Of a DNA stretch of 64,000 nt, positions 35,941 to 64,000 are shown one piece after another. The stretch is from Cafeteria roenbergensis (lineage: Eukaryota; Sar; Bigyra; Bicosoecida; Cafeteriaceae). The notes below the pieces were generated by a model. That model was not told where the DNA came from. It did not search any database and was given only the letters and a program-made list of their open reading frames with translations. Each line of letters begins with the position of its first letter. Positions within the stretch are counted from its first letter, which is position 1. Made by a program: the position numbers and the translations under genes. The stretch lies in NCBI GenBank assembly GCA_008330645.1, contig VLTN01000075.1, positions 86,268 to 150,267 of the forward strand. Reading direction: 5' to 3'.

Positions 35941-35972
<32 letters not shown>

Positions 35973-42874: not shown

Positions 42875-45101
42875 GGCCGGGTGCTGCAGCCGCGTCGCTG
42901 CGCCACAGCCAGCTGGGACAGGCTCAAGCACCGGCGTTTTCTGTCCAAGCGCTCTCCCAGTGCGCGTCAAGGAGCGCGGGAAGGCACTGCTACTGGCCAA
43001 CCACCCCAACACGCCCGCCCAAGGGCCAGGCCGACCCCCGAGCGATGTGGCACACTAAAGAGTACCCCGCGGGTCTCAATCTGCCCCTGGGCTGCGGTCA
43101 CGGTCGGGAAGAGTGCGTTGCCGCTCACCAGTGGCGGGCGGAAGCGTGTTGGCGCAATTCGGAGTTGCAGAGGCTCGACTTGTGCTTTCAGCTCTGTCGC
43201 GGACCGACCAAACGCAGGCTCGTCTCGGCCCCAGAGGACAAGACGCACCGAGAGTACCCGGGGTAGCGCAGCAATACGACATTGGTGCGCACCAATTCAT
43301 CCCAGGGGAGCCCCGCCCACGGTGAAGCCCTGAATATTCCAGTGCTGCACTGCTCCAAATTTGTCGCTGTGTGTACGTCGCGCTGCTCGGTTTGCGCGCG
43401 TTTCTGGCGCGCAGGCATCGCCTGCGAGCGGAGGCTGAGCGGCGACTCGCTGCAGGGTGGTGGCAGTGACCTGGGGTTGGGATTGGGATTGAGATTGGGA
43501 CCTGGGCTTGCGGGTTCGCGCGATCTGTGAGTCGCTGGGGATGATGTTGCTGGATGAATGAACATCGTTGGATTGGTTCGGGCGAGGCTGTGCATCGAGT
43601 GTGAGATTTGGTGACACGAGTTTTTCGGTCCCCCCTGCCAATGATGCTGGGCGTCTGCTCGGCCGCATGAGTTCTTGAGGTCGGGGAAAAGCGACTGGGC
43701 GCAGCAGGGCTTCCCGACGCTCCAAACTCTGCCGAGCCCATTCTCGTCGCTGCGCCCATGTTGCATCGCCAGCAACCTCCCTGGCGATGACCGCGGGTGC
43801 CAGCAAACACGGGAGGCCTAAGACAGCTATTGGGGGTCCACTTTGGAGCCTGGGCCTATTTTCCGGGCGCGGTGGGGCGCTGGAATAAATGTGCGTGTCG
43901 TCGCTGTTGGTTTGCGCAGCTCAGGCGCTGGGCTGCTGGGCGATCCAAGCCGCAATGATTCGCTCGCCCGTCCGCCGTAGGAGTTGAGACTCTCCGGTTG
44001 GTCGAGCTGGGCCGCCCGTCATTGGGACCGGAGTCTCGGCGGCTGCAGACTTGTCGCCATTCGGACCCATGGCGGGCAACGGGCCAGGCGACGCAGGACG
44101 GACGGCTGCCGTGTGATTGATCAAGGGGGTACTGGGTCGGAAACATGCGCGGTGCATGATCAGCGCGAAACGTCATGGAAGCGCTCAATCTCACGAAAGA
44201 GCCCCAGCCCGGTTTGCTGCAGTTGGGATTGTGAACCCCAGCACCAAAAAGCGCGCCAACGGCCACCAGCATACAAAACCGGGAAAGAGAATTGGTAGAA
44301 ACTCACTGGGGGTCGTACACGTCTGGCTGGGGCGGGCGGAGATGGCGCCTCTTTGCTTGGTCGGCTGCAGCAAGCGCGGCGCATCGCCGCGGAGTCTTCG
44401 TTTGTTGAGCGGGTTGTTCCGGGCAGGTTCGCAATCCAGGCTGGTCAGCATCCGTCCAAACGAGCGCAGCTCGGCCCGTTTGGCCCACTCGGTGGTTTGC
44501 CCTGTGCGCCTCGGGCCGTGTGGCGAAAATCGCTCAGCGCGCCGAAGTGCGGCAAAGGGTTTGTCATTGCAGAAAAGCGACCCATGCAAGGCACGCGCCA
44601 TGCATCTGGGATCACCTGGCCTGGCAGCTGACTCTCCTCACTTGAAGGAGAAACCGCCGAGCACCAGCTGAAAAGGACCTGACACCTCGCCGGCAAGACA
44701 AGAGCGGCACCATTTCCCCTGCTCCGAGCCCAGACGCGACCCTGAGGCTCAGGCCACCAGCGCTCGCAACGCTGCCATCGCAATTCGTGGCGGGAGGCGA
44801 GGCGCAAGCCCGCGCCTTTTGCGGCTCTGCCGGTTTCGCTGGCAATCAGTCAACAGCTGCCGCAGCTTGCTTGGGCGCCAGCAAGGGCACCCCTTGCGGC
44901 TGCTCCCTGGCGTCGGCCCAGTTCAGGAACCAGTTGGGTTCATATTTATCCTCGGGGCACTCGCTCCCGCCACCATCAGAGCACGGGCCGCGGTCTGGCA
45001 GCTGCCACGACCTCGGCTGCCACCTCGTCATCGAAGGGCTTGGGCAGATCGGGCGACAACCAGCCAAAGCCATTCCAGCCCGCGCCCCGCCGTCGGTCCG
45101 G
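42875..45101. other. 2.2-kb region without a recognisable gene
   Basis: Composition is intermediate. ORFs up to ~240 codons occur on the minus strand but resemble nothing and overlap other-strand ORFs. It includes a TTGGGA-type repeat near 43475-43505 and a TATA-like string near 44941. Presumably it carries the upstream regions of PIG-A (leftward) and the giant gene (rightward). Confidence 0.5.
44940..44951 (+). promoter_or_regulatory. TATA-like element upstream of the giant gene
   Basis: TCATATTTATCC stands out in GC-rich surroundings about 150 bp before the proposed start at 45102. A role as core promoter is only a suggestion. Confidence 0.2.
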
Positions 45102-48100
45102 ATGCCCATTCCCCGTCGACAGTGGGGCTCTGAGCGCGCTTTCCGAGGCTGCATTGGCTGGCTGGCTTTTGCTGCTGCGTTCCTTGGCACCCGCGCAATC
45201 GAATGCCCTGCTCTCGGCGGCTCGGTGACGATTGAGCGGTCTTGCTCGCTGGCCAGTGGGGACTACTCTGTGAGCAGCCTCAGGATCATGACCGGTGTTA
45301 CCGTGACAGCAACCTTGCCAGTCTCGCTCACGGCGGCGTCAGAAGTCCACGTGGACGGAGCAATCGTCGGGCAGTCCGCGGCTGGAGGGGCGGAAATGTC
45401 ACTGACTATTCGCGCAAGAACCCTGATTCGGGTGTCCGGACAGGTGAACGTTGACGGTTGCGGCTATTCGAATGGCGCTGCGGCTCCCGGTTGCTATGGC
45501 ACAGGCAGCTACTGGTATGGAGGCTACCACGCAGTTGCGCCCTCTGGCTATTCGGGATGTGGGGACTTCGAGTGGCCAACGCTGGCAGGGAGCTCCGCAG
45601 GCTACGCAGGCTTTCCAGCTTCGGACGGGGCTGGGGGGGGGGTCCTTGCGCTTCATTGCGATGCAACCCCATCCAGCAAAGTCGAGCTAGACGGAACCGT
45701 GACAGCCTCGGGCAATATTGGGTACAATCGCGGCGGAGGCGCCGGCGGCTCTCTGATCATCAGTGCCTCCGTTTTCACTGGCGTGGGCGCCGCAAGCGTC
45801 AATGGCGGGCGTGCGTACTACAGCTCTCGTCGAGCTGGCAGCGGAGGTCGGGTTGCAATTTACGCCGTGACCAACAACTTTGCAGGCACCGTTGATGCCA
45901 GATCCGGAACAGCCGCCACCCCTGCATACACCAACGGAGCTGGGACAAAGTACTGGTGTGTGGGAAAGGCAGCTGCAGCTCAACAGGACGCGGCAACAAA
46001 CCCTCGACAGTGCGCGCATCGAAAACTGGAGGTTGATAACCATGGGCTTGGGTTCAATTCGAATTCGTTCACGATGTTGGCAACCGGTGTGCAAGCGCGT
46101 CACGTAGTCCTGGACGAGCTGTACTTTGGCTCAAACAGCTTGTTTGAGGTCGCAGCGCGGACGACGTTTGACGCAGTCGAGTCTCCAACAGATAGGACGT
46201 CTGTCACACTTGGAAACGTAACTGGCCCTGGTGTGACTGGCACAACGATGCGTTTCGCATCAGGGACAACGCTGACTCTGGCCGGCATCAGCCACGGAAA
46301 GCAAAGTGTTGGACGTCGTGCAGTTCGAAGCTGGATGGAGCGCTCTGCAGCAGAGCCTGCATGGTTGAGAGATATTGTGTCTCAGGAGACGTTCATGAAT
46401 CCCACGGAAATTGTCGTTGGTCGCTTGGAAATGCTCGCTGACAGCCAACTCAACGTGGGCAGCATCACAATATTGCGAGCAGGCACCCAGCTCTGGCTAG
46501 GAGGCCGGCTCACTGGCTGCACTTCCCTGGTCCTGGACGAAGGCTCGACAATGAGCATGGCTGAGACATCAGGAACTTGGACGGATGATAGCTCTGCCGC
46601 GCCCAGTGCTTGGGAGACGTTTGCATGCGGCGGCCCAGAGCCTGCTTGCGTTTCGAGCGGCCGAGACGTCGAGTCGCGGTTCGGGCTGTCACAGGCCGCT
46701 TTTGCGTCACTCTACATCTTGGGTGACGCGACATTGTCTCTTGAAGGCGGCATGAGGAGATTAAGGGCTCTCACAATTGCATTGGAACATGAGGGCAGCA
46801 TTATCGTCGCCAACTCGAAAGACGTTCAAGTTGTGATCGAGTCGCGAGACTGGCTCCGCGTCGGGCCGGGGGCGAGCATCCGAGCGGACGGCTCGGGCTA
46901 CGTCAGCGACACGCGTGACGCGAGCTGCTTCGGCGGTGGGAGCGGCGAGGGCGGGCTGCACGGCGGCGGGCCGGCGGGGCAGGCGTGCGGCGACTACGAG
47001 TGGCCCGTCCTCGCCGGCGCGGGCGGAGACGGCGGGTCGGGCGGCGGGTCGGTGATGCTGGTGTGCAACGCCACGGAGTCGAGCGCGATGGAGCTGAACG
47101 GCACCGTGTCCGTGAGCGGAGCCTATGGCCGGGGAGGGGGAGCGGGCGGGTCGCTGCTGGTGGTGGCCTCGCGGCTGTCCGGGTCCGGCGCCCTCTCGGC
47201 CGACGGCGGAGCAGCCACTTCCAACTCCAATGGCGGCTCCGGCGGGCGCATCGCCATCCACGCCTACCAGCCCGCGCGGAACATCACCTTCACCGGCACC
47301 GTCCGCGCTCGCGCCGGGCCGCTCTCGGGGTCCTGGGGTACACAGGCCGCCGCGGGCACGGTCTACTGGTGCGACGGGCGGGTGTCCGACACCACCGCCG
47401 CGAGCGACGCCGGCGAGAACACTCACAGGTGCGGCGTCCGCAGACTCGAGGTCGACAACGGCGACCTGCGCCAGACCACCCACCAGACGCAGCTCGTCCT
47501 CCCGCCGTGGCGCCGCAACGTCGCCATCGACGACCTCCGGATGGGCAACAGCGTCCAGCTGTCCGTGTCCCCGCCCGCCGTCTTCGACCCCGTGGCCATG
47601 CCGCTCAACCGCACCACCGTGGTCGTGGGGCGGCTGGAGGGCCTGGGCTCCGACACCTCGGCCATCCACAGCCGCGCCGGCGTGACGGTGGTGCACACGG
47701 GGCTGCGGCCGGGCGCGCAGAGCCTGCGCGAGAACGGCGACTGGCGGCGCTCCTCCATGGAGCTCGCGGGCGCGTCGGCCACGGTGGAGGAGCACGGCTG
47801 GCTGGTGCTGCCGCCCAACGTGGCGGTGCGAGACGCCGTGCTCACGGTGCGGGGCGAGGTGCGGGGCGTGCGGTCGCTGACGCTGGAGGAGGGCTCGAGC
47901 GCCAGCCTCGCGGCGAGCGGGGCCACGTGGCTGGGCGACGCGGCGGGCGCGGAGCTGGCCGGGTGGGGCGGCAGCATCCCGGCGTCCAGCAGCGCGCTGG
48001 AGGGCTGGGAGGGCTGGGCCTGCTCGCAGCGGCTGTCGGCGTGCGCGTCCCGGGGCCGCGACGCGGCGTCGTCGTCGGACCAGGGCCGGTACGCGTTCGG

Positions 48101-51100
48101 GTCGCTGCGGCTGCTGGACGACGCGACGCTGACGCTTGTTGCGGGGGTGAGCACGCTGGGCGGCGTGGTGGCCCTTGAGGCGCTGCACGCATCGCGCGTG
48201 ACGGTGCAGGGCCCGCAGACAGAGCAGCTGCGCATCCAGTCGCGAGACTGGCTCCGCGTCGGGCCGGGGGCGAGCATCCGAGCGGACGGCTCGGGCTACG
48301 TCAGCGACACGCGTGACGCGAGCTGCTTCGGCGGCGGGAGCGGCGAGGGCGGGCTGCACGGCGGCGGGCCGGCGGGGCAGGCGTGCGGCGACTACGAGTG
48401 GCCCGTGCTCGCCGGCGCGGGCGGAGACGGCGGGTCGGGCGGCGGGTCGGTGATGCTGGTGTGCAACGCCACGGAGTCGAGCGCGATGGAGCTGAACGGC
48501 ACCGTGTCCGTGAGCGGAGCCTATGGCCGGGGAGGGGGAGCGGGCGGGTCGCTGCTGGTGGTGGCCTCGCGGCTGTCCGGGTCCGGCGCCCTCTCGGCCG
48601 ACGGCGGAGCAGCCACTTCCAACTCCAATGGCGGCTCCGGCGGGCGCATCGCCATCCACGCCTACCAGCCCGCGCGGAACATCACCTTCACCGGCACCGT
48701 CCGCGCTCGCGCCGGGCCGCTCTCGGGGTCCTGGGGTACACAGGCCGCCGCGGGCACGGTCTACTGGTGCGACGGGCGGGTGTCCGACACCACCGCCGCG
48801 AGCGACGCCGGCGACAACACTCACAGGTGCGGCGTCCGCAGACTCGAGGTGGACAACGGCGACCTGCGCCAGACCACCTACCAGACGCAGCTCGTCCTCC
48901 CGCCGTGGCGCCGGAACGTCGCCATCGACGACCTCCGGATGGGCAACAGCGTCCAGCTGTCCGTGCCCCCGCCCGCCGTCTTCGACCCCGTGGCCATGCC
49001 GCTCAACCGCACCACCGTGGTCGTGGGGCGGCTGGAGGGCCTGGGCTCCGACACCTCGGCCATCCACAGCCGCGCCGGCGTGACGGTGGTGCACACGGGG
49101 CTGCGGCCGGGCGCGCAGAGCCTGCGCGAGAACGGCGACTGGCGGCGCTCCTCCATGGAGCTCGCGGGCGCGTCGGCCACGGTGGAGGAGCACGGCTGGC
49201 TGGTGTTGCCGCCCAACGTGGCGGTGCGAGACGCCGTGCTCACGGTGCGGGGCGAGGTGCGGGGCGTGCGGTCGCTGACGCTGGAGGAGGGCTCGAGCGC
49301 CAGCCTCGCGGCGAGCGGGGCCACGTGGCTGGGCGACGCGGCGGGCGCGGAGCTGGCCGGGTGGGGCGGCAGCATCCCGGCGTCCAGCAGCGCGCTGGAG
49401 GGCTGGGAGGGCTGGGCCTGCTCGCAGCGGCTGTCGGCGTGCGCGTCCCGGGGCCGCGACGCGGCGTCGTCGTCGGACCAGGGCCGGTACGCGTTCGGGT
49501 CGCTGCGGCTGCTGGACGACGCGACGCTGACGCTTGTTGCGGGGGTGAGCACGCTGGGCGGCGTGGTGGCCCTTGAGGCGCTGCACGCATCGCGCGTGAC
49601 GGTGCAGGGCCCGCAGACAGAGCAGCTGCGCATCCAGTCGCGGGACCGGCTCCGCGTCGGGCCGGGGGCGAGCATCCGAGCGGACGGCTCGGGCTACGTC
49701 AGCGGCACGCGTGACGCGAGCTGCTTCGGCGGTGGGAGCGGCGAGGGCGGGCTGCACGGCGGCGGGCCGGCGGGGCAGGCGTGCGGCGACTACGAGTGGC
49801 CCGTCCTCGCCGGCGCGGGCGGAGACGGCGGGTCGGGCGGCGGGTCGGTGATGCTGGTGTGCAACGCCACGGAGTCGAGCGCGATGGAGCTGAACGGCAC
49901 CGTGTCCGTGAGCGGAGCCTATGGCCGGGGAGGGGGAGCGGGCGGGTCGCTGCTGGTGGTGGCCTCGCGGCTGTCCGGGTCCGGCGCCCTCTCGGCCGAC
50001 GGCGGAGCAGCCACTTCCAACTCCAATGGCGGCTCCGGCGGGCGCATCGCCATCCACGCCTACCAGCCCGCGCGGAACATCACCTTCACCGGCACCGTCC
50101 GCGCTCGCGCCGGGCCGCTCTCGGGGTCCTGGGGTACACAGGCCGCCGCGGGCACGGTCTACTGGTGCGACGGGCGGGTGTCCGACACCACCGCCGCGAG
50201 CGACGCCGGCGAGAACACGCACAGGTGCGGCGTCCGCAGACTCGAGGTCGACAACGGCGACCTGCGCCAGACCATTCACCAGACGCAGCTCGTCCTCCCG
50301 CCGTGGCGCCGCAACGTCGCCATCGACGACCTCCGGATGGGCAACAGCGTCCAGCTGTCCGTGCCCCCGCCCGCCGTCTTCGACCCCGTGGCCATGCCGC
50401 TCAACCGCACCACCGTGGTCGTGGGGCGGCTGGAGGGCCTGGGCTCCGACACCTCGGCCATCCACAGCCGCGCCGGCGTGACGGTGGTGCACACGGGGCT
50501 GCGGCCGGGCGCGCAGAGCCTGCGCGAGAACGGCGACTGGCGGCGCTCCTCCATGGAGCTCGCGGGCGCGTCGGCCACGGTGGAGGAGCACGGCTGGCTG
50601 GTGCTGCCGCCCAACGTGGCGGTGCGAGACGCCGTGCTCACGGTGCGGGGCGAGGTGCGGGGCGTGCGGTCGCTGACGCTGGAGGAGGGCTCGAGCGCCA
50701 GCCTCGCGGCGAGCGGGGCCACGTGGCTGGGCGACGCGGCGGGCGCGGAGCTGGCCGGGTGGGGCGGCAGCATCCCGGCGTCCAGCAGCGCGCTGGAGGG
50801 CTGGGAGGGCTGGGCCTGCTCGCAGCGGCTGTCGGCGTGCGCGTCCCGGGGCCGCGACGCGGCGTCGTCGTCGGACCAGGGCCGGTACGCGTTCGGGTCG
50901 CTGCGGCTGCTGGACGACGCGACGCTGACGCTTGTTGCGGGGGTGAGCACGCTGGGCGGCGTGGTGGCCCTTGAGGCGCTGCACGCATCGCGCGTGACGG
51001 TGCAGGGCCCGCAGACAGAGCAGCTGCGCATCCAGTCGCGAGACCGGCTGTGGCTCGGGCCGGGGGCGAGCATCCGAGCGGACGGCTCGGGCTACGTCAG

Positions 51101-54100
51101 CGACACACGTGACGCGAGCTGCTTCGGCGGCGGGAGCGGCGAGGGCGGGCTGCACGGCGGCGGGCCGGCGGGGCAGGCGTGCGGCGACTACGAGTGGCCC
51201 GTCCTCGCCGGCGCGGGCGGGTCGCCGGGCCAGCACGACGGCGGGTCGGGCGGCGGGTCGGTGATGCTGGTGTGCAACGCCACGGAGTCGAGCGCGATGG
51301 AGCTGAACGGCACCGTGTCCGTGGACGGGCAGAGCGGGCGCGCCTTCACCTCCGGCTACTCGTGGGCGAGTGGCGGGGGAGCGGGCGGGTCGCTGCTGGT
51401 GGTGGCCTCGCGGCTGTCGGGGTCCGGCACCCTCTCGGCCGACGGCGGCGCCGGGGCGAACGGTCATGGATCTCTTGACAGCAACGGCGGCTCCGGCGGG
51501 CGCATCGCCATCCACGCCTACCAGCCCGCGCGGAACATCACCTTCACCGGCACCGTCCGCGCTCGCGCCGGGCCGCTCTCGGGGTCCTGGGGTACACAGG
51601 CCGCCGCGGGCACGGTCTACTGGTGCGACAGGCGGGTGTCCGACACCACCGCCGCGAGCGACGCCGGCGAGAACACTCACAGGTGCGGCGTCCGCAGACT
51701 CGAGGTCGACAACGGCGACCTGCGCCAGACCACCTACCAGACGCAGCTCGTCCTCCCGCCGTGGCGCCGCAACGTCGCCATCGACGACCTCCGGATGGGC
51801 AACAGCGTCCAGCTGTCCGTGCCCCCGCCCGCCGTCTTCGACCCCGTGGCCATGCCGCTCAACCGCACCACCGTGGTCGTGGGGCGGCTGGAGGGCCTGG
51901 GCTCCGACACCTCGGCCATCCACAGCCGCGCCGGCGTGACGGTGGTGCACACGGGGCTGCGGCCGGGCGCGCAGAGCCTGCGCGAGAACGGCGACTGGCG
52001 GCGCTCCTCCATGGAGCTCGCGGGCGCGTCGGCCACGGTGGAGGAGCACGGCTGGCTGGTGTTGCCGCCCAACGTGGCGGTGCGAGACGCCGTGCTCACG
52101 GTGCGGGGCGAGGTGCGGGGCGTGCGGTCGCTGACGCTGGAGGAGGGCTCGAGCGCCAGCCTCGCGGCGAGCGGGGCCACGTGGCTGGGCGACGCGGCGG
52201 GCGCGGAGCTGGCCGGGTGGGGCGGCAGCATCCCGGCGTCCAGCAGCGCGCTGGAGGGCTGGGAGGGCTGGGCCTGCTCGCAGCGGCTGTCGGCGTGCGC
52301 GTCCCGGGGCCGCGACGCGGCGTCGTCGTCGGACCAGGGCCGGTACGCGTTCGGGTCGCTGCGGCTGCTGGACGACGCGACGCTGACGCTTGTTGCGGGG
52401 GTGAGCACGCTGGGCGGCGTGGTGGCCCTTGAGGCGCTGCACGCATCGCGCGTGACGGTGCAGGGCCCGCAGACAGAGCAGCTGCGCATCCAGTCGCGGG
52501 ACCGGCTCCGCGTCGGGCCGGGGGCGAGCATCCGAGCGGACGGCTCGGGCTACGTCAGCGACACACGTGACGCGAGCTGCTTCGGCGGTGGGAGCGGCGA
52601 GGGCGGGCTGCACGGCGGCGGGCCGGCGGGGCAGGCGTGCGGCGACTACGAGTGGCCCGTCCTCGCCGGCGCGGGCGGAGACGGCGGGTCGGGCGGCGGG
52701 TCGGTGATGCTGGTGTGCAACGCCACGGAGTCGAGCGCGATGGAGCTGAACGGCACCGTGTCCGTGAGCGGAGCCTATGGCCGGGGAGGGGGAGCGGGCG
52801 GGTCGCTGCTGGTGGTGGCCTCGCGGCTGTCCGGGTCCGGCGCCCTCTCGGCCGACGGCGGAGCAGCCACTTCCAACTCCAATGGCGGCTCCGGCGGGCG
52901 CATCGCCATCCACGCCTACCAGCCCGCGCGGAACATCACCTTCACCGGCACCGTCCGCGCTCGCGCCGGGCCGCTCTCGGGGTCCTGGGGTACACAGGCC
53001 GCCGCGGGCACGGTCTACTGGTGCGACAGGCGGGTGTCCGACACCACCGCCGCGAGCGACGCCGGCGAGAACACTCACAGGTGCGGCGTCCGCAGACTCG
53101 AGGTCGACAACGGCGACCTGCGCCAGACCACCTACCAGACGCAGCTCGTCCTCCCGCCGTGGCGCCGCAACGTCGCCATCGACGACCTCCGGATGGGCAA
53201 CAGCGTCCAGCTGTCCGTGCCCCCGCCCGCCGTCTTCGACCCCGTGGCCATGCCGCTCAACCGCACCACCGTGGTCGTGGGGCGGCTGGAGGGCCTGGGC
53301 TCCGACACCTCGGCCATCCACAGCCGCGCCGGCGTGACGGTGGTGCACACGGGGCTGCGGCCGGGCGCGCAGAGCCTGCGCGAGAACGGCGACTGGCGGC
53401 GCTCCTCCATGGAGCTCGCGGGCGCGTCGGCCACGGTGGAGGAGCACGGCTGGCTGGTGCTGCCGCCCAACGTGGCGGTGCGAGACGCCGTGCTCACGGT
53501 GCGGGGCGAGGTGCGGGGCGTGCGGTCGCTGACGCTGGAGGAGGGCTCGAGCGCCAGCCTCGCGGCGAGCGGGGCCACGTGGCTGGGCGACGCGGCGGGC
53601 GCGGAGCTGGCCGGGTGGGGCGGCAGCATCCCGGCGTCCAGCAGCGCGCTGGAGGGCTGGGAGGGCTGGGCCTGCTCGCAGCGGCTGTCGGCGTGCGCGT
53701 CCCGGGGCCGCGACGCGGCGTCGTCGTCGGACCAGGGCCGGTACGCGTTCGGGTCGCTGCGGCTGCTGGACGACGCGACGCTGACGCTTGTTGCGGGGGT
53801 GAGCACGCTGGGCGGCGTGGTGGCCCTTGAGGCGCTGCACGCATCGCGCGTGACGGTGCAGGGCCCGCAGACAGAGCAGCTGCGCATCCAGTCGCGAGAC
53901 TGGCTCCGCGTCGGGCCGGGGGCGAGCATCCGAGCGGACGGCTCGGGCTACGTCAGCGGCACGCGTGACGCGAGCTGCTTCGGCGGTGGGAGCGGCGAGG
54001 GCGGGCTGCACGGCGGCGGGCCGGCGGGGCAGGCGTGCGGCGACTACGAGTGGCCCGTCCTCGCCGGCGCGGGCGGGTCGCCGGGCCAGCACGACGGCGG

Positions 54101-57100: not shown

Positions 57101-60100
57101 GGACGGGCAGAGCGGGCGCGCCTTCACCTCCGGCTCGGGGTCGGCGAGCGGCGGGGGAGCGGGCGGGTCGCTGCTGGTGGTGGCCTCGCGGCTGTCGGGG
57201 TCCGGCACCCTCTCGGCCGACGGCGGCGCCGGGGCGGACGGCTACAGTACGCTGGACAGCAACGGCGGCTCCGGCGGGCGCATCGCCATCCACGCCTACC
57301 AGCCCTCGCGCGCCGTCGCCTTCACCGGCACTGTGCGTGCTCGTGCCGGGCCGGCATACGGGTCGTGGAGTCCGCAGGCGGCGGCGGGCACGGTCTACTG
57401 GTGCGACGGGCGGGTGAGCGAGTCCGAGGCGGCGCTGGAGGGCGAGGCGAACGCGCACCGCTGCGGCGTGCGGCGGCTGGAGCTGGACAACGGCGATCTG
57501 CCGGAGACGCCGTACTACCCGCAGCTGGCCCTGTCTTCAAACTTGAGTTCAGTTCGTCTCGACGTCGTTTTCTTTCGCTCCCCTACTTACTTTGCCCTTT
57601 CAGCGCAAGCAGGGTTTTTGATTACACACCCATTCAATCATCGACGGAATGTTCGCATCGGGTCTTTGCAAGGGCCAGCGGTCATTCGTTCGACGGTTTG
57701 TGTCCAGAGCGGAACAGATTGGCAGTTCTCAATTCAACATTCGTTGTCAGGAGCTGCTGCAGCAGTGATTGAGGTGCAGCACTTGGTTGTTGAGCAAGCT
57801 GGGACGATTCGAACTCCAAGCACCGTCAAGATCTTTAACGCTCTGGTCGAGTTGAAAGGGGCGTGGACAGGAGCGTCAGTCGTCGAACTCTCCGGGACAA
57901 GTCGGCTGGTCCTTGCCAAGGAAGGCAGCACACCCGTGGAGCCAGAGATTGGAGCACAAAGCCTTCGAGAATGGTCTCGCTGGGTTTGTCAGATTGGGCT
58001 AGCAAGTTGCTTGTCAAACCGAACACATCAGGGCGCGGACAGTGGCAAAGAGGACCTCGCAGGCCTCATAGCTTTCAAGTCTTTACAACTTTTGAATCAG
58101 GCCTCTCTCACAGTTGACCCCGGTGTCACCTCAATCGCAGCAGCGGAGATCGACCTCATGCACACCTCATCCATCAACGTCCTCGGACCCCAGACAGCGC
58201 AGCTCCACGTCCAGGCCCGCGACTCGCTCAGGATCGGACCGGGTGCAGCAATCCGAGCCGATGGCGTCGGATACGGCTCCAACGCCCGACACCCCAGCTG
58301 CTCCGACGGCGGCGCCCGCAACGGCGGCATGCACGGCGGCGGGCCGGAGGGCAAGACATGCGGCGACTACGAGTGGCCCGTCCTCGCCGGCGCGGGCGGG
58401 TCGTCGGGCCAGCACGACGGCGGGTCGGGCGGCGGGTCGGTGATGCTGGTGTGCAACGCCACGGAGTCGAGCGCGATGGAGCTGAACGGCACCGTGTCCG
58501 TGGACGGGCAGAGCGGGCGCGCCTTCACCTCCGGCTACTCGTGGGCGAGTGGCGGGGGAGCGGGCGGGTCGCTGCTGGTGGTGGCCTCGCGGCTGTCGGG
58601 GTCCGGCACCCTCTCGGCCGACGGCGGCGCCGGGGCGGACGGCTACAGTACGCTGGACAGCAACGGCGGCTCCGGCGGACGCATCGCCATCCACGCCTAC
58701 CAGCCCTTGCGAAACACCACCTTCACCGGCACTGTCCGCGCTCGTGCCGGGCCGGCGTACGGGTCGTGGAGTCCGCAGGCGGCGGCGGGCACGGTCTTCT
58801 GGTGCGACGGGCGGGTGAGCGAGTCCGAGGCGGCGCTGGAGGGCGAGGCGAACGCGCACCGCTGCGGCGTGCGGCGGCTGGAGCTGGACAACGGCGATCT
58901 GCCGGAGACGCCGTACTTTCCTCAGTTGGACTTTTCGCTTGCCCCTCTTCACGTTGCGATTGACGTTCTCTTTCTCGGGTCGTCAATTAAGTTTGCCGTG
59001 GTTCCTCAACTGCAGTCTGACCCGCTCATGCTGCACGTCGAGGTCGGTCGAGTGATCGGTCCAGGAGCTGCGCTCGTGTCGTTGCATGTCCGACCGCGGG
59101 TGCATTTGGTCTGGCAAGCTGACTCATCAACGGATGAAGAGCCCTTGACTTTCAGCTTCAGCAGCGTGGATATCGAATCAGGTGGGTGGTTGACACTTCC
59201 AGCGGTGGTTTCCTTGCAGGCCGCCACTCTCTCCGTTGCTGGCCTGCTGGAAGGGGCAAGCAGTTTGAGGGCGTTGTCAAGCACACGTATCATTCTCAGC
59301 GGAGGAGGAGGAAGTACGATTCGGGGTGGCAGCACTGCTTGTGGCATCGCCTCGTCTCAACCACTGCTAACGTGGGCTTGCCCTCAATCTCAAGGAACCT
59401 CGGCCATCGCAATCAGCAATGTCAGCGCTCCGGAGTATTCGCCAGGAAAGTTTGCATTCGGATCACTCAAGCTTGAGGACACATCCGAAACAAGCGTTTC
59501 TTCAGGTGTCTCTGTGCTGGTGGCGGCTGAGCTGGCATTCCTGGGGCAGTCCAGGCTTGTGGTGGTTGGACCGCATGCGGACTCTCTCCAAATTGAGGCA
59601 TTTCGCCAGTTCATTGTCGGCGCTGGCGCACGTATCACTTCGAGCGGTGCTGGGTTTGCCAGCGACACGCAAGAGCTGGAGTGCTTTGGCGCGCTTCCTG
59701 GGGATGGCGGCGTGCACGGCGGCGGGCCGGAGGGCAAGACATGCGGCGACTACGAGTGGCCCGTCCTCGCCGGCGCGGGCGGGTCGTCGGGCCAGTACGA
59801 CGGCGGGTCGGGCGGCGGGTCGGTGGTGCTGGTGTGCAACGCCACGGAGTCGAGCGCGATGGAGCTGAACGGCACCGTGTCCGTGGACGGGCAGAGCGGG
59901 CGCGCCTTCACCTCCGGCTCGGGGTCGGCGAGCGGCGGGGGAGCGGGCGGGTCGCTGCTGGTGGTGGCCTCGCGGCTGTCGGGGTCCGGCACCCTCTCGG
60001 CCGACGGCGGCGCCGGGGCGGACGGATACGAGACGGATGACAGCAACGGCGGCTCCGGCGGGCGCATCGCCATCCACGCCTACCAACCCTCGCGAAACAC

Positions 60101-63100
60101 CACCTTCACCGGCACTGTGCGTGCTCGTGCCGGGCCGGCGTACGGGTCGTGGAGTCCGCAGGCGGCGGCGGGCACGGTCTACTGGTGCGAAGGCCGCATA
60201 CCGGCGGAGTTTGCAAATCCTGAAACCAATCGGTTTCGGTGCTTTACAAGGCGGCTGGAGCTGGACAACGGCGATCTGCCGGAGACTTTGTACTACCCGC
60301 AGCTGACTGTCTCTGCAGAGCGTCGTCACTTTGTGATCAATGAGCTTTTCTTGGGTTCTGCGACCACCGTATCGCTGCACCCTCGGGCGGGAACAGAATT
60401 TCCTGTGAGCTCGTCAGCATATGCCTCATTGTCCCTTGGAACGATTCTCGGACCCGGCGCGGAAGCCTCGCGCTTTCCACTCGTTCCTGGAGCAAGTCTT
60501 GGATTTGGTGCGGAGCAGGAGGGAAGCTCAAATGTGTTGGCGCTTCGGTCAGCTCAGCTGGTGGTCGCGGCTTCCAGCACGCTCCGGCTGCCAAACCATG
60601 TCATTCTGTCTGGGTCAAGCTTGATTGTGCATGGCAAGCTGATCGGGGTGCGACAGTTAGAGCTGTGGAATGGCTCATCGCTCGTCCTGGGCCGTGGGGG
60701 CTTTGCAAGCCCGACTGATTGCACTCAGGCCAGCGATTGCTTAGAGCAACAGCGGAGCGGGCAATACACCCTACAGTCACTGCGGATGCTGGGCAATGCC
60801 ACCCTCACAGTTGACCCCGGTGTCACCTCAATCGCAGCAGCGGAGATCGACCTCATGCACACCTCATCCATCAACGTCCTTGGACCCCAGACAGCGCAGC
60901 TCCACGTCCAGGCCCGCGACTCGCTCAGGATCGGACCGGGTGCAGCAATCCGAGCCGATGGCGTCGGATACGGCTCCAACGCCCGACACCCCAGCTGCTC
61001 CGACGGCGGCGCCCGCAACGGCGGCATGCACGGCGGCGGGCCGGAGGGCAAGACATGCGGCGACTACGAGTGGCCCGTCCTCGCCGGCGCGGGCGGGTCG
61101 TCGGGCCAGCACGACGGCGGGTCGGGCGGCGGGTCGGTGATGCTGGTGTGCAACGCCACGGAGTCGAGCGCGATGGAGCTGAACGGCACCGTGTCCGTGG
61201 ACGGGCAGAGCGGGCGCGCCTTCACCTCCGGCTACTCGTGGGCGAGTGGCGGGGGAGCGGGCGGGTCGCTGCTGGTGGTGGCCTCGCGGCTGTCGGGGTC
61301 CGGCACCCTCTCGGCCGACGGCGGCGCCGGGGCGGACGGCTACAGTACGCTGGACAGCAACGGCGGCTCCGGCGGACGCATCGCCATCCACGCCTACCAG
61401 CCCTCGCGAAACACCACCTTCACCGGCACTGTCCGCGCTCGTGCCGGGCCGGCGTACGGGTCGTGGAGTCCGCAGGCGGCGGCGGGCACGGTCTACTGGT
61501 GCGACGGGCGGGTGAGCGAGTCCGAGGCGGCGCTGGAGGGCGAGGCGAACGCGCACCGCTGCGGCGTGCGGCGGCTGGAGCTGGACAACGGCGATCTGCC
61601 GGAGACGCCGTACTACCCGCAGCTGTCCATCGCGGGAGGTCGGCGCCGCTTCGTGATCGACGAGCTGCACCTCGAGACCGCGACGAATCTGTCGGTTCAG
61701 GCGCCCCTTGACTTCGACTCGGTTGCAGCACCAGGCGACGGAACCTCGCTGTCCGTGTCTCGCATGTCAGGGCCGGGGCTTTCTGAGTCGCCTCTCGTGG
61801 TGAAGGACGGCACCGACTGGGCCCTTGGCCCGGACCCTGCGCTTCCGGTCGATGAGCCCTTCTTGCTCGATCTCCACAGCGTGGGGGTAGAGCCACTCGG
61901 GAGGCTGAAGCTTGCGCCCGTCACCGTCACGCGACGAGGCATGTCGTTTACGGTGCGTGGCGAGCTGACGGGAGTGGAGTCGCTGACGCTGGATCGCGGG
62001 ACCAAGGCCCATCTCACGTCCTCGGGCGGCTCATGGGTCGCGAATGTCACCGACGACACAACGGGGTGGAAGGGCTGGGCCTGCGCTGCTGAGCGGGCAG
62101 CTTGTGCTGTGCAAACGAACGGGTCGATTGTCAGGGAGCGGGGCTGGTACGCATTCGCCAGGCTGCAGCTGTCCGGTGATGCATCGCTCGTGCTCGATGC
62201 CGGCGTGCAATCGCTGGCGGCCGCCGAGCTGAGCATGCAAGGCGCAGCGACGATGACCGCGTTGGGACCGCGGACGACACAGCTGCGGCTGATCGCTCGC
62301 GACCGCCTGCTCCTGGCTCCCGGCGCCTCCATCCGAGCCGATGGCGTCGGATACGGGCCCAACGCCCGACACCCCAGCTGCTCCGACGGCGGCGCCCGCA
62401 ACGGCGGCATGCACGGCGGCGGGCCGGAGGGCAAGACATGCGGCGACTACGAGTGGCCCGTCCTCGCCGGCGCGGGCGGGTCGTCGGGCCAGCACGACGG
62501 CGGGGCGGGCGGCGGGTCGGTGATGCTGGTGTGCAACGCCACGGAGTCGAGCGCGATGGAGCTGAACGGCACCGTGTCCGTGGACGGGCAGAGCGGGCGC
62601 GCCTTCACCTCCGGCTCGGGGTCGGCGAGCGGCGGGGGAGCGGGCGGGTCGCTGCTGGTGGTGGCCTCGCGGCTGTCGGGGTCTGGCACCCTCTCGGCCG
62701 ACGGCGGCGCCGGGGCGGACGGTCATGGATCTCTTGACAGCAACGGCGGCTCCGGCGGGCGCATCGCCATCCACGCCTACCAGCCCTCCCGGTCAGACTT
62801 CACCGGCACTGTCCGTGCTCGTGCCGGGCCGGCGTACGGGTCGTGGAGTCCGCAGGCGGCGGCGGGCACGGTCTACTGGTGCGACGGGCGGGTGAGCGAG
62901 TCCGAGGCGGCGCTGGAGGGCGAGGCGAACGCGCACCGCTGCGGCGTGCGGCGGCTGGAGCTGGACAACGGCGATCTGCCGGAGACGCCGTACTACCCGC
63001 AGCTGTCCATCGCGGGAGGTCGGCGCCGCTTCGTGATCGACGAGCTGCACCTCGAGACCGCGACGAATCTGTCGGTTCAGGCGCCCCTTGACTTCGACTC

Positions 63101-64000
63101 GGTTGCAGCACCAGGCGACGGAACCTCGCTGTCCGTGTCTCGCATGTCAGGGCCGGGGCTTTCTGAGTCGCCTCTCGTGGTGAAGGACGGCACCGACTGG
63201 GCCCTTGGCCCGGACCCTGCGCTTCCGGTCGATGAGCCCTTCTTGCTCGATCTCCAAAGCGTGGGGGTAGAGCCACTCGGGAAGCTGAAGCTTGCGCCCG
63301 TCACCGTCACGCGACGAGGCATGTCGTTTACGGTGCGTGGCGAGCTGACGGGAGTGGAGTCGCTGACGCTGGATCGCGGGACCAAGGCCCATCTCACGTC
63401 CTCGGGCGGCTCATGGGTCGCGAATGTCACCGACGACACAACGGGGTGGAAGGGATGGGCCTGCGCTGCTGAGCGGGCAGCTTGTGCTGTGCAAACGAAC
63501 GGGTCGATTGTCAGGGAGCGGGGCTGGTACGCATTCGCCAGGCTGCAGCTGTCCGGTGATGCATCGCTCGTGCTCGATGCCGGCGTGCAATCGCTGGCGG
63601 CCGCCGAGCTGAGCATGCAAGGTGCAGCGACGATGACGGCTTTGGGACCGCGGACGACACAGCTGCAGCTGATCGCTCGCGACCGCCTGCTCCTGGCTCC
63701 CGGCGCCTCCATCCGAGCCGATGGCGTCGGATACGGGCCCAACGCCCGACACCCCAGCTGCTCCGACGGCGGCGCCCGCAACGGCGGCATGCACGGCGGC
63801 GGGCCGGAGGGCAAGACATGCGGCGACTACGAGTGGCCCGTCCTCGCCGGCGCGGGCGGGTCGCCGGGCCAGCACGACGGCGGGTCGGGCGGCGGGTCGG
63901 TGGTGCTGGTGTGCAACGCCACGGAGTCGAGCGCGATGGAGCTGAACGGCACCGTGTCCGTGGACGGGCAGAGCGGGCGCGCCTTCACCTCCGGCTCGGG
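45102..64000 (+). CDS. Giant secreted repeat protein, at least 14 units, open at the right edge
   Basis: From the ATG at 45102 the frame is open to base 64000, about 6,300 codons, with no stop or need for an intron. The start was chosen because it gives a signal peptide (basic start, then CIGWLAFAAAFLG, then a small-residue cleavage zone near TRA); the frame is also open upstream. Each unit has (a) a glycine-rich module of about 200 residues: CGDYEWPVLAGAGG, GSVMLVCNATESS, GGGAGGSLLVVAS, GGSGGRIAIHAYQP, GTVYWCDGRVS, CGVRRLE; and (b) a linker of about 230-260 residues with beta-strand periodicity (SLTLEEGSSASL, FGSLRLLDDATLTL) ending GPGASIRADG. Seven cysteines and up to four N-glycosylation sequons recur per unit. 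Spacings between copies are all multiples of three. GGSGGRIAI-type modules occur in large surface proteins of protists; the function here is unknown, perhaps cell coat or adhesion. Confidence 0.85.
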   Translation, partial: MPIPRRQWGSERAFRGCIGWLAFAAAFLGTRAIECPALGGSVTIERSCSLASGDYSVSSLRIMTGVTVTATLPVSLTAASEVHVDGAIVGQSAAGGAEMSLTIRARTLIRVSGQVNVDGCGYSNGAAAPGCYGTGSYWYGGYHAVAPSGYSGCGDFEWPTLAGSSAGYAGFPASDGAGGGVLALHCDATPSSKVELDGTVTASGNIGYNRGGGAGGSLIISASVFTGVGAASVNGGRAYYSSRRAGSGGRVAIYAVTNNFAGTVDARSGTAATPAYTNGAGTKYWCVGKAAAAQQDAATNPRQCAHRKLEVDNHGLGFNSNSFTMLATGVQARHVVLDELYFGSNSLFEVAARTTFDAVESPTDRTSVTLGNVTGPGVTGTTMRFASGTTLTLAGISHGKQSVGRRAVRSWMERSAAEPAWLRDIVSQETFMNPTEIVVGRLEMLADSQLNVGSITILRAGTQLWLGGRLTGCTSLVLDEGSTMSMAETSGTWTDDSSAAPSAWETFACGGPEPACVSSGRDVESRFGLSQAAFASLYILGDATLSLEGGMRRLRALTIALEHEGSIIVANSKDVQVVIESRDWLRVGPGASIRADGSGYVSDTRDASCFGGGSGEGGLHGGGPAGQACGDYEWPVLAGAGGDGGSGGGSVMLVCNATESSAMELNGTVSVSGAYGRGGGAGGSLLVVASRLSGSGALSADGGAATSNSNGGSGGRIAIHAYQPARNITFTGTVRARAGPLSGSWGTQAAAGTVYWCDGRVSDTTAASDAGENTHRCGVRRLEVDNGDLRQTTHQTQLVLPPWRRNVAIDDLRMGNSVQLSVSPPAVFDPVAMPLNRTTVVVGRLEGLGSDTSAIHSRAGVTVVHTGLRPGAQSLRENGDWRRSSMELAGASATVEEHGWLVLPPNVAVRDAVLTVRGEVRGVRSLTLEEGSSASLAASGATWLGDAAGAELAGWGGSIPASSSALEGWEGWACSQRLSACASRGRDAASSSDQGRYAFGSLRLLDDATLTLVAGVSTLGGVVALEALHASRVTVQGPQTEQLRIQSRDWLRVGPGASIRADGSGYVSDTRDASCFGGGSGEGGLHGGGPAGQACGDYEWPVLAGAGGDGGSGGGSVMLVCNATESSAMELNGTVSVSGAYGRGGGAGGSLLVVASRLSGSGALSADGGAATSNSNGGSGGRIAIHAYQPARNITFTGTVRARAGPLSGSWGTQAAAGTVYWCDGRVSDTTAASDAGDNTHRCGVRRLEVDNGDLRQTTYQTQLVLPPWRRNVAIDDLRMGNSVQLSVPPPAVFDPVAMPLNRTTVVVGRLEGLGSDTSAIHSRAGVTVVHTGLRPGAQSLRENGDWRRSSMELAGASATVEEHGWLVLPPNVAVRDAVLTVRGEVRGVRSLTLEEGSSASLAASGATWLGDAAGAELAGWGGSIPASSSALEGWEGWACSQRLSACASRGRDAASSSDQGRYAFGSLRLLDDATLTLVAGVSTLGGVVALEALHASRVTVQGPQTEQLRIQSRDRLRVGPGASIRADGSGYVSGTRDASCFGGGSGEGGLHGGGPAGQACGDYEWPVLAGAGGDGGSGGGSVMLVCNATESSAMELNGTVSVSGAYGRGGGAGGSLLVVASRLSGSGALSADGGAATSNSNGGSGGRIAIHAYQPARNITFTGTVRARAGPLSGSWGTQAAAGTVYWCDGRVSDTTAASDAGENTHRCGVRRLEVDNGDLRQTIHQTQLVLPPWRRNVAIDDLRMGNSVQLSVPPPAVFDPVAMPLNRTTVVVGRLEGLGSDTSAIHSRAGVTVVHTGLRPGAQSLRENGDWRRSSMELAGASATVEEHGWLVLPPNVAVRDAVLTVRGEVRGVRSLTLEEGSSASLAASGATWLGDAAGAELAGWGGSIPASSSALEGWEGWACSQRLSACASRGRDAASSSDQGRYAFGSLRLLDDATLTLVAGVSTLGGVVALEALHASRVTVQGPQTEQLRIQSRDRLWLGPGASIRADGSGYVSDTRDASCFGGGSGEGGLHGGGPAGQACGDYEWPVLAGAGGSPGQHDGGSGGGSVMLVCNATESSAMELNGTVSVDGQSGRAFTSGYSWASGGGAGGSLLVVASRLSGSGTLSADGGAGANGHGSLDSNGGSGGRIAIHAYQPARNITFTGTVRARAGPLSGSWGTQAAAGTVYWCDRRVSDTTAASDAGENTHRCGVRRLEVDNGDLRQTTYQTQLVLPPWRRNVAIDDLRMGNSVQLSVPPPAVFDPVAMPLNRTTVVVGRLEGLGSDTSAIHSRAGVTVVHTGLRPGAQSLRENGDWRRSSMELAGASATVEEHGWLVLPPNVAVRDAVLTVRGEVRGVRSLTLEEGSSASLAASGATWLGDAAGAELAGWGGSIPASSSALEGWEGWACSQRLSACASRGRDAASSSDQGRYAFGSLRLLDDATLTLVAGVSTLGGVVALEALHASRVTVQGPQTEQLRIQSRDRLRVGPGASIRADGSGYVSDTRDASCFGGGSGEGGLHGGGPAGQACGDYEWPVLAGAGGDGGSGGGSVMLVCNATESSAMELNGTVSVSGAYGRGGGAGGSLLVVASRLSGSGALSADGGAATSNSNGGSGGRIAIHAYQPARNITFTGTVRARAGPLSGSWGTQAAAGTVYWCDRRVSDTTAASDAGENTHRCGVRRLEVDNGDLRQTTYQTQLVLPPWRRNVAIDDLRMGNSVQLSVPPPAVFDPVAMPLNRTTVVVGRLEGLGSDTSAIHSRAGVTVVHTGLRPGAQSLRENGDWRRSSMELAGASATVEEHGWLVLPPNVAVRDAVLTVRGEVRGVRSLTLEEGSSASLAASGATWLGDAAGAELAGWGGSIPASSSALEGWEGWACSQRLSACASRGRDAASSSDQGRYAFGSLRLLDDATLTLVAGVSTLGGVVALEALHASRVTVQGPQTEQLRIQSRDWLRVGPGASIRADGSGYVSGTRDASCFGGGSGEGGLHGGGPAGQACGDYEWPVLAGAGGSPGQHDGGSGGGSVMLVCNATESSAMELNGTVSVDGLDGRASVSSYSWSSGGGAGGSLVVVASRLSGSGTLSADGGAGADGWSTYDSNGGSGGRIAIHAYQPSRTNFTGTVRARAGPLSGSWGTQAAAGTVYWCDRRVSDTTAASDAGENTHRCGVRRLEVDNGDLRQTTYQTQLVLPPWRRNVAIDDLRMGNSVQLSVPPPAVFDPVAMPLNRTTVVVGRLEGLGSDTSAIHSRAGVTVVHTGLRPGAQSLRENGDWRRSSMELAGASATVEEHGWLVLPPNVAVRDAVLTVRGEVRGVRSLTLEEGSSASLAASGATWLGDAAGAELAGWGGSIPASSSALEGWEGWACSQRLSACASRGRDAASSSDQGRYAFGSLRLLDDATLTLGVGVSTLGGVVALEALHASRVTVQGPQTEQLRIQSRDRLWLGSGASIRADGSGYVSGTRDASCFGGGSGEGGLHGGGPAGQACGDYEWPVLAGAGGSPGQHDGGSGGGSVMLVCNATESSAMELNGTVSVDGQSGRAFTSGYSWSSGGGAGGSLLVVASRLSGSGTLSADGGAGADGYSTLDSNGGSGGRIAIHAYQPSRAVAFTGTVRARAGPAYGSWSPQAAAGTVYWCDGRVSESEAALEGEANSYHCGVRRLEADNGGLPKADVVTQVLLSDSRRHFWFDELLVAGNAALNVPAPKTFSHSAFGQDQTVVYVGKQIGSQIATGTVTVVAGTTWTFAGVTPGKIAMSAKTTAVQVDDTSSQTPWATEVSTTKTMMNPLELRGWNLAVDYQGTVILPPSVVIRAGSSFRLDGRVGGIRALALDAGATMAIGEFGSSWLNDTSPLSASWTKWACAAQSSTCTSTLPSQPSQGRVAFESLRMLGNATLTVDPGVTSIAAAEIDLMHTSSINILGPQTAQLHVQARDSLRIGPGAAIRADGVGYGSNARHSSCSDGGARNGGMHGGGPEGKTCGDYEWPVLAGAGGSSGQHDGGSGGGSVVLVCNATESSAMELNGTVSVDGQSGRAFTSGSGSASGGGAGGSLLVVASRLSGSGTLSADGGAGADGYSTLDSNGGSGGRIAIHAYQPSRAVAFTGTVRARAGPAYGSWSPQAAAGTVYWCDGRVSESEAALEGEANAHRCGVRRLELDNGDLPETPYYPQLALSSNLSSVRLDVVFFRSPTYFALSAQAGFLITHPFNHRRNVRIGSLQGPAVIRSTVCVQSGTDWQFSIQHSLSGAAAAVIEVQHLVVEQAGTIRTPSTVKIFNALVELKGAWTGASVVELSGTSRLVLAKEGSTPVEPEIGAQSLREWSRWVCQIGLASCLSNRTHQGADSGKEDLAGLIAFKSLQLLNQASLTVDPGVTSIAAAEIDLMHTSSINVLGPQTAQLHVQARDSLRIGPGAAIRADGVGYGSNARHPSCSDGGARNGGMHGGGPEGKTCGDYEWPVLAGAGGSSGQHDGGSGGGSVMLVCNATESSAMELNGTVSVDGQSGRAFTSGYSWASGGGAGGSLLVVASRLSGSGTLSADGGAGADGYSTLDSNGGSGGRIAIHAYQPLRNTTFTGTVRARAGPAYGSWSPQAAAGTVFWCDGRVSESEAALEGEANAHRCGVRRLELDNGDLPETPYFPQLDFSLAPLHVAIDVLFLGSSIKFAVVPQLQSDPLMLHVEVGRVIGPGAALVSLHVRPRVHLVWQADSSTDEEPLTFSFSSVDIESGGWLTLPAVVSLQAATLSVAGLLEGASSLRALSSTRIILSGGGGSTIRGGSTACGIASSQPLLTWACPQSQGTSAIAISNVSAPEYSPGKFAFGSLKLEDTSETSVSSGVSVLVAAELAFLGQSRLVVVGPHADSLQIEAFRQFIVGAGARITSSGAGFASDTQELECFGALPGDGGVHGGGPEGKTCGDYEWPVLAGAGGSSGQYDGGSGGGSVVLVCNATESSAMELNGTVSVDGQSGRAFTSGSGSASGGGAGGSLLVVASRLSGSGTLSADGGAGADGYETDDSNGGSGGRIAIHAYQPSRNTTFTGTVRARAGPAYGSWSPQAAAGTVYWCEGRIPAEFANPETNRFRCFTRRLELDNGDLPETLYYPQLTVSAERRHFVINELFLGSATTVSLHPRAGTEFPVSSSAYASLSLGTILGPGAEASRFPLVPGASLGFGAEQEGSSNVLALRSAQLVVAASSTLRLPNHVILSGSSLIVHGKLIGVRQLELWNGSSLVLGRGGFASPTDCTQASDCLEQQRSGQYTLQSLRMLGNATLTVDPGVTSIAAAEIDLMHTSSINVLGPQTAQLHVQARDSLRIGPGAAIRADGVGYGSNARHPSCSDGGARNGGMHGGGPEGKTCGDYEWPVLAGAGGSSGQHDGGSGGGSVMLVCNATESSAMELNGTVSVDGQSGRAFTSGYSWASGGGAGGSLLVVASRLSGSGTLSADGGAGADGYSTLDSNGGSGGRIAIHAYQPSRNTTFTGTVRARAGPAYGSWSPQAAAGTVYWCDGRVSESEAALEGEANAHRCGVRRLELDNGDLPETPYYPQLSIAGGRRRFVIDELHLETATNLSVQAPLDFDSVAAPGDGTSLSVSRMSGPGLSESPLVVKDGTDWALGPDPALPVDEPFLLDLHSVGVEPLGRLKLAPVTVTRRGMSFTVRGELTGVESLTLDRGTKAHLTSSGGSWVANVTDDTTGWKGWACAAERAACAVQTNGSIVRERGWYAFARLQLSGDASLVLDAGVQSLAAAELSMQGAATMTALGPRTTQLRLIARDRLLLAPGASIRADGVGYGPNARHPSCSDGGARNGGMHGGGPEGKTCGDYEWPVLAGAGGSSGQHDGGAGGGSVMLVCNATESSAMELNGTVSVDGQSGRAFTSGSGSASGGGAGGSLLVVASRLSGSGTLSADGGAGADGHGSLDSNGGSGGRIAIHAYQPSRSDFTGTVRARAGPAYGSWSPQAAAGTVYWCDGRVSESEAALEGEANAHRCGVRRLELDNGDLPETPYYPQLSIAGGRRRFVIDELHLETATNLSVQAPLDFDSVAAPGDGTSLSVSRMSGPGLSESPLVVKDGTDWALGPDPALPVDEPFLLDLQSVGVEPLGKLKLAPVTVTRRGMSFTVRGELTGVESLTLDRGTKAHLTSSGGSWVANVTDDTTGWKGWACAAERAACAVQTNGSIVRERGWYAFARLQLSGDASLVLDAGVQSLAAAELSMQGAATMTALGPRTTQLQLIARDRLLLAPGASIRADGVGYGPNARHPSCSDGGARNGGMHGGGPEGKTCGDYEWPVLAGAGGSPGQHDGGSGGGSVVLVCNATESSAMELNGTVSVDGQSGRAFTSGS
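45558..46985 (+). repeat. Giant protein unit 1, diverged founder-like copy
   Basis: It starts at CGDFEWP and keeps GGGAGGSLIISAS, GSGGRVAIYA and KYWCVGK, but differs from all later copies at most other positions, and its DNA is less GC-rich. Its linker reads through to the first standard GPGASIRADG block. Confidence 0.8.
46986..55490 (+). repeat. Giant protein units 2-7, near-identical tandem block
   Basis: The CGDYEWP motif recurs at 46986, 48384, 49782, 51180, 52638 and 54036 (spacings 1398, 1398, 1398, 1458, 1398, then 1455 to unit 8). Linkers are almost identical in all six. Units 2, 3, 4 and 6 share the short loop set; units 5 and 7 carry longer loops (SPGQHD and SVDG...), which explains the longer spacing after them. 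Confidence 0.95.
55491..61055 (+). repeat. Giant protein units 8-11, identical modules joined by four different linkers
   Basis: CGDYEWP is at 55491, 56958, 58359 and 59742. The module part stays almost identical to units 2-7 and 12-14, while linkers at about 56040-56700, 57540-58105, 58915-59700 and 60290-60780 differ strongly from each other and from every other copy. I translated all four linkers in frame and found no stop. Confidence 0.9.
61056..63818 (+). repeat. Giant protein units 12 and 13, recent tandem duplicate with shared linker
   Basis: CGDYEWP is at 61056, 62439 and (unit 14) 63819. The linkers at about 61624-62338 and 63004-63718 differ at only a handful of bases (for example CACAGC versus CAAAGC near 61877/63257), so the unit was duplicated recently, independently of the units 2-7 block. 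Confidence 0.9.

Follow-up and report, generated by a model that had tools for sequence, protein, structure and literature searches.

The open reading frame that runs off the end of contig C75 of Cafeteria roenbergensis is proposed to be the 5′ part of a gene encoding a giant surface protein that is exported and anchored in the membrane, and whose long array of tandem units would serve as a contact or adhesion stalk. Judged from sequence comparison, we put the probability of this statement as a whole at about 0.7. The arrays of this family are probably very long surface stalks, because they carry an export signal at the start and a membrane domain at the ends that are known. The stretch of DNA analysed, here called the window, is 64,000 nucleotides long (C75:86268-150267; positions below are those of the window), and the genome searched comprises 36,303,456 bases in 167 contigs. 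The organism is named C. burkhardae in later work (PMC8547959, in the portion available).

Organisation of the giant reading frame

The + strand frame starting at the ATG at 45102 contains no stop before the end of the window. Its length of 6,299 codons agrees with the approximately 6,300 codons claimed in an earlier note on this DNA. The maximal open frame is 44787-63998 (+), with a GTG start and 6,404 codons. Within 45102-64000 the other two + strand frames have 130 and 65 stops, and the minus strand frames 110, 116 and 53. Calculated from base composition, the probability of 6,300 open codons by chance is about 1e-55; when the near-identical units 2-7 are counted once, about 3,800 codons remain, with a chance probability of about 1e-33. 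The GC content at the three codon positions is 67/60/84%, in a window of approximately 71.5% GC (mean of the GC table). Changes in length between the units are in frame, all 13 unit spacings being divisible by three, as the earlier note had stated of the distances it listed. The stops in the other five frames, the codon-position GC and the in-frame length changes together uphold its claim that the region is coding. In the 26 of 30 unit comparisons for which dN/dS could be computed (the other four involve unit 1 and were saturated) the values are 0.09-0.79, with no sign of positive selection. An antisense ORF of 3,184 codons, 46761-56315 (-), overlies the array, and is taken to be a shadow of the sense array at such a high GC content.

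The frame is open at the end of the window because contig C75 stops there, inside the repeat array: the last base of the contig is the last base of the window, and the 3′ end of the frame is absent from the assembly. The gene is thus cut by the end of its contig, rather than hidden by its own length as had been suggested. No Rfam family was found in 43000-64000. A bacterial promoter scan found no promoter, and the corresponding terminator scan gave 5 terminator-like sites against 1.5 expected; neither scan is meaningful in a eukaryote.

By its gene content the window is ordinary nuclear DNA, since nearby ORFs match Ctf4/Mcl1 (WDHD1; 30744-34907, +), U-box (35374-38829, -), PIG-A (39881-43012, -, the closest named gene on the upstream side of the giant frame) and NAD synthase (23212-25389, -). 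A further family match is to Jhy (4811-6796, +). The GC content dips to 57-58.5% at 26001-30000, compared with about 72% around it, and this section is possibly an inserted element. A 459-codon ORF at 29927-31306 (-) has no Pfam match. Two tandem repeats, both 98-99% matching, are located at 623-973 (17 bp, 20.6 copies) and 6946-7048 (19 bp, 5.4 copies).

The predicted protein begins with a likely signal peptide of 32 residues (45102-45197), basic and then hydrophobic, which was recognised by eye in the translation and whose start matches those of the paralogous arrays C8, C9 and C75L described below. The distance from the ATG to the first unit anchor is 152 codons, compared with 138 in C8, 150 in C9 and 151 in C75L. 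The signal peptide is followed by an N-terminal cap (45198-45377), which the alignment shows to be conserved among the paralogs.

The remainder of the frame consists of 14 units, each marked by the anchor CGD[YF]EWP, the last being incomplete; the earlier note had counted at least 14. The anchor spacings are 1428, 1398, 1398, 1398, 1458, 1398, 1455, 1467, 1401, 1383, 1314, 1383 and 1380 bp. Each unit comprises a core and a linker, which in unit 2 are 189 (from the unit start) and 277 residues long respectively. Unit 1 (45378-46805, core 45432-45959) is divergent. Units 2 to 7 all have a linker of type A: unit 2 (46806-48203, core 46866-47372), unit 3 (48204-49601, core 48264-48770), unit 4 (49602-50999, core 49662-50168), unit 5 (51000-52457, core 51060-51626), unit 6 (52458-53855, core 52518-53024) and unit 7 (53856-55310, core 53916-54479). 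The next four units have linkers that are unique to them, namely W in unit 8 (55311-56777, core 55371-55937), X in unit 9 (56778-58178, core 56838-57404), Y in unit 10 (58179-59561, core 58239-58805) and Z in unit 11 (59562-60875, core 59622-60188). Unit 12 (60876-62258, core 60936-61502) and unit 13 (62259-63638, core 62319-62882) have linkers of type C, in common with C75L and C116. Unit 14 (63639-63998, core from 63699) is cut by the contig end.

The frame contains 100 cysteines in 6,299 residues. Seven cysteines per unit had been claimed, and this holds for 11 of the 13 full units; unit 1 has nine and unit 9 has eight. The claim of repeated N-glycosylation sequons stands: there are 55, about twice the 27.5 ± 4.9 found in 500 shuffles (maximum 45). 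The excess persists with the repeats thinned to units 1, 2 and 8-12 (28, compared with 15.2 ± 3.5 and a shuffle maximum of 27). On the basis of the signal-like start, as read by eye, and the sequon excess, the giant protein is likely to be exported. A period-two alternation of hydropathy in units 8-13 (z 6.5) suggests that the unit contains strands; a check for a β-solenoid fold, as in right-handed β-helix proteins, gave no Pfam or PDB match to the unit.

Paralogous arrays and the recombination of cores and linkers

Searching the genome at the protein level returned at least 74 matches, on contigs C75, C9, C116, C8, C80, C26, C61 and C16. C75 carries two arrays, one at each end and both reading outward: the window array and the one here called C75L. 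C89 and C109 also start within such arrays. The total is approximately 11 arrays, which would correspond to 10 genes if C75L and C116 belong together. The eight arrays that were fully or partly laid out have 75 cores (21 in C75L, 17 in C116, 14 in the window, 12 in C9, 6 in C61, 2 each in C8 and C89, and 1 in C109), a count that leaves out C80, C26 and C16.

The complete organisation is seen in C8, which has start, units and membrane tail in one frame without interruption (3,364 codons between stops) on a contig of 749,805 bases. In order, there is a signal-like start, two cores (the second of which closes the array), three repeats of DG[ST]C type, a section of about 280 residues of coiled-coil type with a modest heptad tendency (z 2.7), a Cys-rich stretch with C.DG..NG.E...DCG-like repeats, a stretch that by eye resembles IPT/TIG, and a hydrophobic tail. 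C61 has the same order of parts, with one frameshift. C9 reaches as far as the DG[ST]C and Cys-rich parts, which lie in changing frames, and then the contig ends.

Many of the arrays lie at contig ends: both ends of C75, C9, C16, C89, C109 and C116. Frameshifts are present in C61 (L037, at about 7.1-7.4 kb), C9, C89, C109 and C116. Some of these paralogs may be pseudogenes or in decay, or the contig ends may be badly polished. The number of units in the array is itself uncertain, because in the three pairs compared among units 2-7 the linkers share 99.3-99.5% identity.

C116 was considered as a continuation of the window gene, since the last 3 kb of the window match part of its interior at 96.8%. 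This was rejected, and C116 is assigned to C75L, because the end of C75L dovetails with the start of C116 over 11,521 bp at 98.5% identity (83 mismatches, 73 gap openings). Both have their linkers in the order E E F F J K C C. If the two are one gene, it has about 29 cores over about 48 kb, with frameshifts in the present assembly; alternatively, C116 is possibly another allele of C75L. Nor could C89, C109 or C16 be assigned to the window gene.

Cores and linkers have different histories. The core of unit 10 is nearly the same as that of unit 9 (dS 0.04) and that of unit 12 (dS 0.01), but the linkers of these two pairs are very different (dS 1.18 and 1.30 respectively, with 47-50% DNA identity). 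In units 12 and 13 it is the linker that is nearly unchanged (dS 0.01), with a core dS of 0.20. Comparison of 67 units identified 181 pairs with cores at least 95% identical, 69 of which have linkers less than 70% identical. Linkers are at least 95% identical in 143 pairs, and in 66 of those the cores are less than 95% identical; these pairs are not independent, because C75L and C116 overlap. At 90% identity there are 14 core types and 26 linker types, and the two C75 genes have in common linker types A and C as well as core type A. By these sequence distances, cores and linkers have recombined separately, and the pattern is as expected from conversion or crossing-over whose breakpoints lie inside the cores and linkers or between them.

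Bacterial relatives of the unit, and the membrane tail of the paralogs

Searches of Pfam, NCBIfam and PDB with the unit gave nothing above cut-off. Weak matches of the unit or coil to Musclin, DUF6255, SMC (coiled coil) and AgmC were rejected, all being under cut-off; the AgmC gliding protein (NF047640) scored 8.9 bits against a cut-off of 275. In a first bacterial scan, with a two-unit alignment, 15 pattern matches came up and none could be confirmed. When bacterial and archaeal genomes were scanned with an alignment of cores instead, three relatives were confirmed among 35 pattern matches, in Candidatus Dojkabacteria (L047), Verrucomicrobia (L048) and Sulfidibacter corallicola (L049). The Dojkabacteria protein, the best of the three, is homologous over the whole unit and in the matching frame, with a BLASTP score of 88.2 bits, compared with at most 27.3 bits in 60 local-composition shuffles and 21.2 for the reversed query; hhalign of the unit against it gives 99.6% with an E value of 5e-24. 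For Sulfidibacter the score is 39.7 bits, whereas shuffles reach at most 26.2. The Dojkabacteria relative resembles the window array in having tandem copies in a large frame (five matches in 3,629 codons), and the frames of the relatives reach 7,002 codons. In the Dojkabacteria phylum, 6 of 145 genomes have matches at 1e-6, one of them in a frame of 6,205 codons. The phylum of Sulfidibacter gave 0 of 149 genomes, a result that is uninformative because the threshold was too strict, the score of Sulfidibacter itself (7e-6) missing it. The bacterial stretches read had no match to TRP or to any other family. Among viral contigs 0 of 19 pattern matches were confirmed, and plasmids gave no match.

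By these alignments, the unit has a homologue in an unnamed, glycine-rich unit that occurs in large proteins of bacteria. With the frame length, the 14 units and the recombination of cores and linkers, this justifies the description of the protein as giant, modular and mosaic. The bacterial units differ in being almost free of cysteine (2 in 1,228 and 1 in 1,506 residues), and because of this the cysteines of the Cafeteria unit are probably a eukaryotic addition, suited to an oxidising secretory route.

The 3′ flank is assembled for eight of the arrays (C8, C61, C26, C16, C80, C116, C89 and C109), and every one of them has a multi-helix membrane tail downstream, on the strand of the array. The window array and C75L both break off before any tail, and the tail of the window protein is assigned by homology only, because its contig ends inside the array. 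Hydropathy profiles of the C8 and C61 tails show by eye seven clear and about two weaker peaks, a count that excludes a Cys-rich hydrophobic peak ahead of the helices. Six tails were scanned against PF06011 (TRP), and five of these (C61, C8, C89, C109 and C16) exceed the Pfam cut-off of 28.5 bits, while C26 falls below it at 21.1 bits. The reversed C61 tail, used as a control, has no match. The match in the array tails spans only about positions 288-402 of the 426 in the profile, i.e. the C-terminal third, compared with 152-401 for a gene on C4 of the same genome.

The Pkd2 protein of fission yeast itself carries PF06011. According to the available parts of two papers, members of the FLC family carry it (PMC9600462), and Pkd2 homologs are placed in this family (PMC8618638). 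The array tails resemble such proteins in matching the C-terminal third of the profile and perhaps also in their hydrophobic stretches, which number about nine in C8 and C61 if the weaker peaks are counted. They differ in that the match is partial, and in that a giant repeat ectodomain stands where FLC/Pkd2 proteins have an ML-like domain. The text available of PMC9600462 describes this domain, ahead of the membrane domain, as usual but not universal in fungal FLC members. In pieces of the C61 tail no ML-like domain was found among families at E up to 10; solved structures gave no match to the tail, and the tails scanned had no match to polycystin families. Because the ML-like domain is absent and no solved structure matched, we describe the tail as TRP-like and do not call it a TRP channel.

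Genome-wide, PF06011 has 28 matches at E up to 10, of which 11 are above cut-off, two of these only with their neighbours in frame. Many belong to open frames that are thousands of codons long and lack the array unit (e.g. 4,203 on C7 and 3,752 on C1). Relatives of the C61 tail occur at C43:246000-247847 (-) and C10:682382-684325 (-), in open frames of 12,260 and 11,924 codons, which are longer than the window frame and had no match to the array unit in the genome protein search. A 3-kb piece of C43 has glycine-rich GGSGG stretches by eye. A match of the core profile to C43 was not significant (E 5 over the whole sequence; 8.7 bits and i-Evalue 0.0006 for the best stretch), so that C43 is not supported as a carrier of the array core. 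The distribution of these matches suggests that TRP-like tails may anchor several kinds of giant ectodomain in the Cafeteria genome.

A proposed surface stalk

We hypothesise that the complete protein would be arranged as follows. The part seen in the window has the likely signal peptide, the cap and at least 14 tandem units of glycine-rich core and linker. From the paralogs, the array would then close with a part-unit, followed by three short DG[ST]C repeats, a coiled coil, a Cys-rich stalk, the multi-helix membrane domain and a cytosolic tail. With a C8-like tail, which has about 2,590 codons after the closing core, the chain would be at least about 8,900 residues long. The Cys-containing, N-glycosylated and probably β-rich array would form a long stalk standing off the cell, and may contact prey, surfaces or other cells. 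The linkers would be its variable face and the cores its uniform building block, and recombination inside cores and linkers would allow arrays to lengthen, shorten and swap linkers. The coat, adhesion or prey-capture role put forward previously is plausible for such a putative protein.

The earlier note described the protein as secreted. In the sense of released, this is probably wrong: a membrane-anchored giant ectodomain is more likely, because all eight assembled paralog flanks carry a membrane tail. A released matrix protein would require that the window gene lacks the tail of its paralogs, and we regard this as very unlikely. It is true that there is no tail on contig C75, and that some large bacterial relatives may be simply secreted; however, at least four tails have no assembled head (C89, C109, C116 and C16), which is enough for the two tail-less heads of C75. 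The idea that the array is an assembly artefact or a non-coding repeat draws on the position of arrays at contig ends and the frameshifts in several of them. It is strongly disfavoured, and is the least probable reading of all, in view of the 6,299 open codons, the in-frame length changes, the protein-level homology to bacteria and the intact, complete paralog C8 inside its 749,805-base contig.

Two other readings accept an anchored array, and assign different roles to its parts. The arrays could be packed as a passive coat or as a flagellar hair, with the membrane domain as an anchor only. Uniform, repetitive and glycosylated units in some 11 arrays would suit a structural material, but a passive layer needs no strong divergence between linkers, and a tail of many helices is elaborate for an anchor; we consider this unlikely. 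The other is a stronger version of the stalk proposal, in which the tail would function as a Ca2+ channel of TRP/Pkd2 type, opened by the array as a lever when prey contact or flow pulls on the stalk. The PF06011 scores, with their reversed control, and the seven clear and roughly two weaker helices speak for such a sensor, as does the report that fission yeast Pkd2, with a nine-helix domain, passes Ca2+ under membrane stretch (PMC11277609, in the part available). Against it are the restricted extent of the PF06011 match, the C26 tail below cut-off, the absence of an ML-like domain or a match to a solved channel, and the description of some FLC-family proteins as flavin carriers in the sections available of PMC9600462 and PMC8618638. 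A force-gated sensor is, like the passive coat, an unlikely explanation at present. Its most elaborate form is a touch organ in a single chain, in which 14 to perhaps 29 bacterial-type units, a coiled coil, a Cys-rich stalk and a Pkd2/TRP-like domain would make a mega-dalton stalk pulling on its own Ca2+ channel, with linkers reshuffled through homogenised cores; this we offer as a speculation that is slightly less probable still.

The preferred reading, a membrane-anchored contact stalk, has partial parallels elsewhere. The PKD2-mastigoneme complex of Chlamydomonas, as described in the available portion of PMC10846610, is an extracellular filament on a polycystin channel, and by analogy shares the idea of a filament joined to a channel. 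In Chlamydomonas, however, filament and channel are separate proteins, and polycystin families are not matched by the array tails. The giant surface proteins of Apilactobacillus kunkeei are extracellular and 3,000-8,000 residues long (PMC12863079, in the text available); they are bacterial, unlike the Cafeteria arrays, and the likeness noted is one of size and location. A literature search that covered few subscription journals found no paper on the array family among the titles listed. Giant array genes of this kind are easily under-reported, because they are located where assemblies break.

Bacterivorous nanoflagellates are major grazers of marine bacteria. To our knowledge, the molecules by which they touch and hold their prey are poorly known. 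The array family, predicted to be exported, glycosylated and very large, provides candidate prey-contact molecules, with a tail of a kind that in yeast is tied to force-gated Ca2+ entry. It would join an unnamed unit of giant bacterial proteins to a eukaryotic membrane domain, and it offers a clear case of cores and linkers that appear to evolve through separate recombination.
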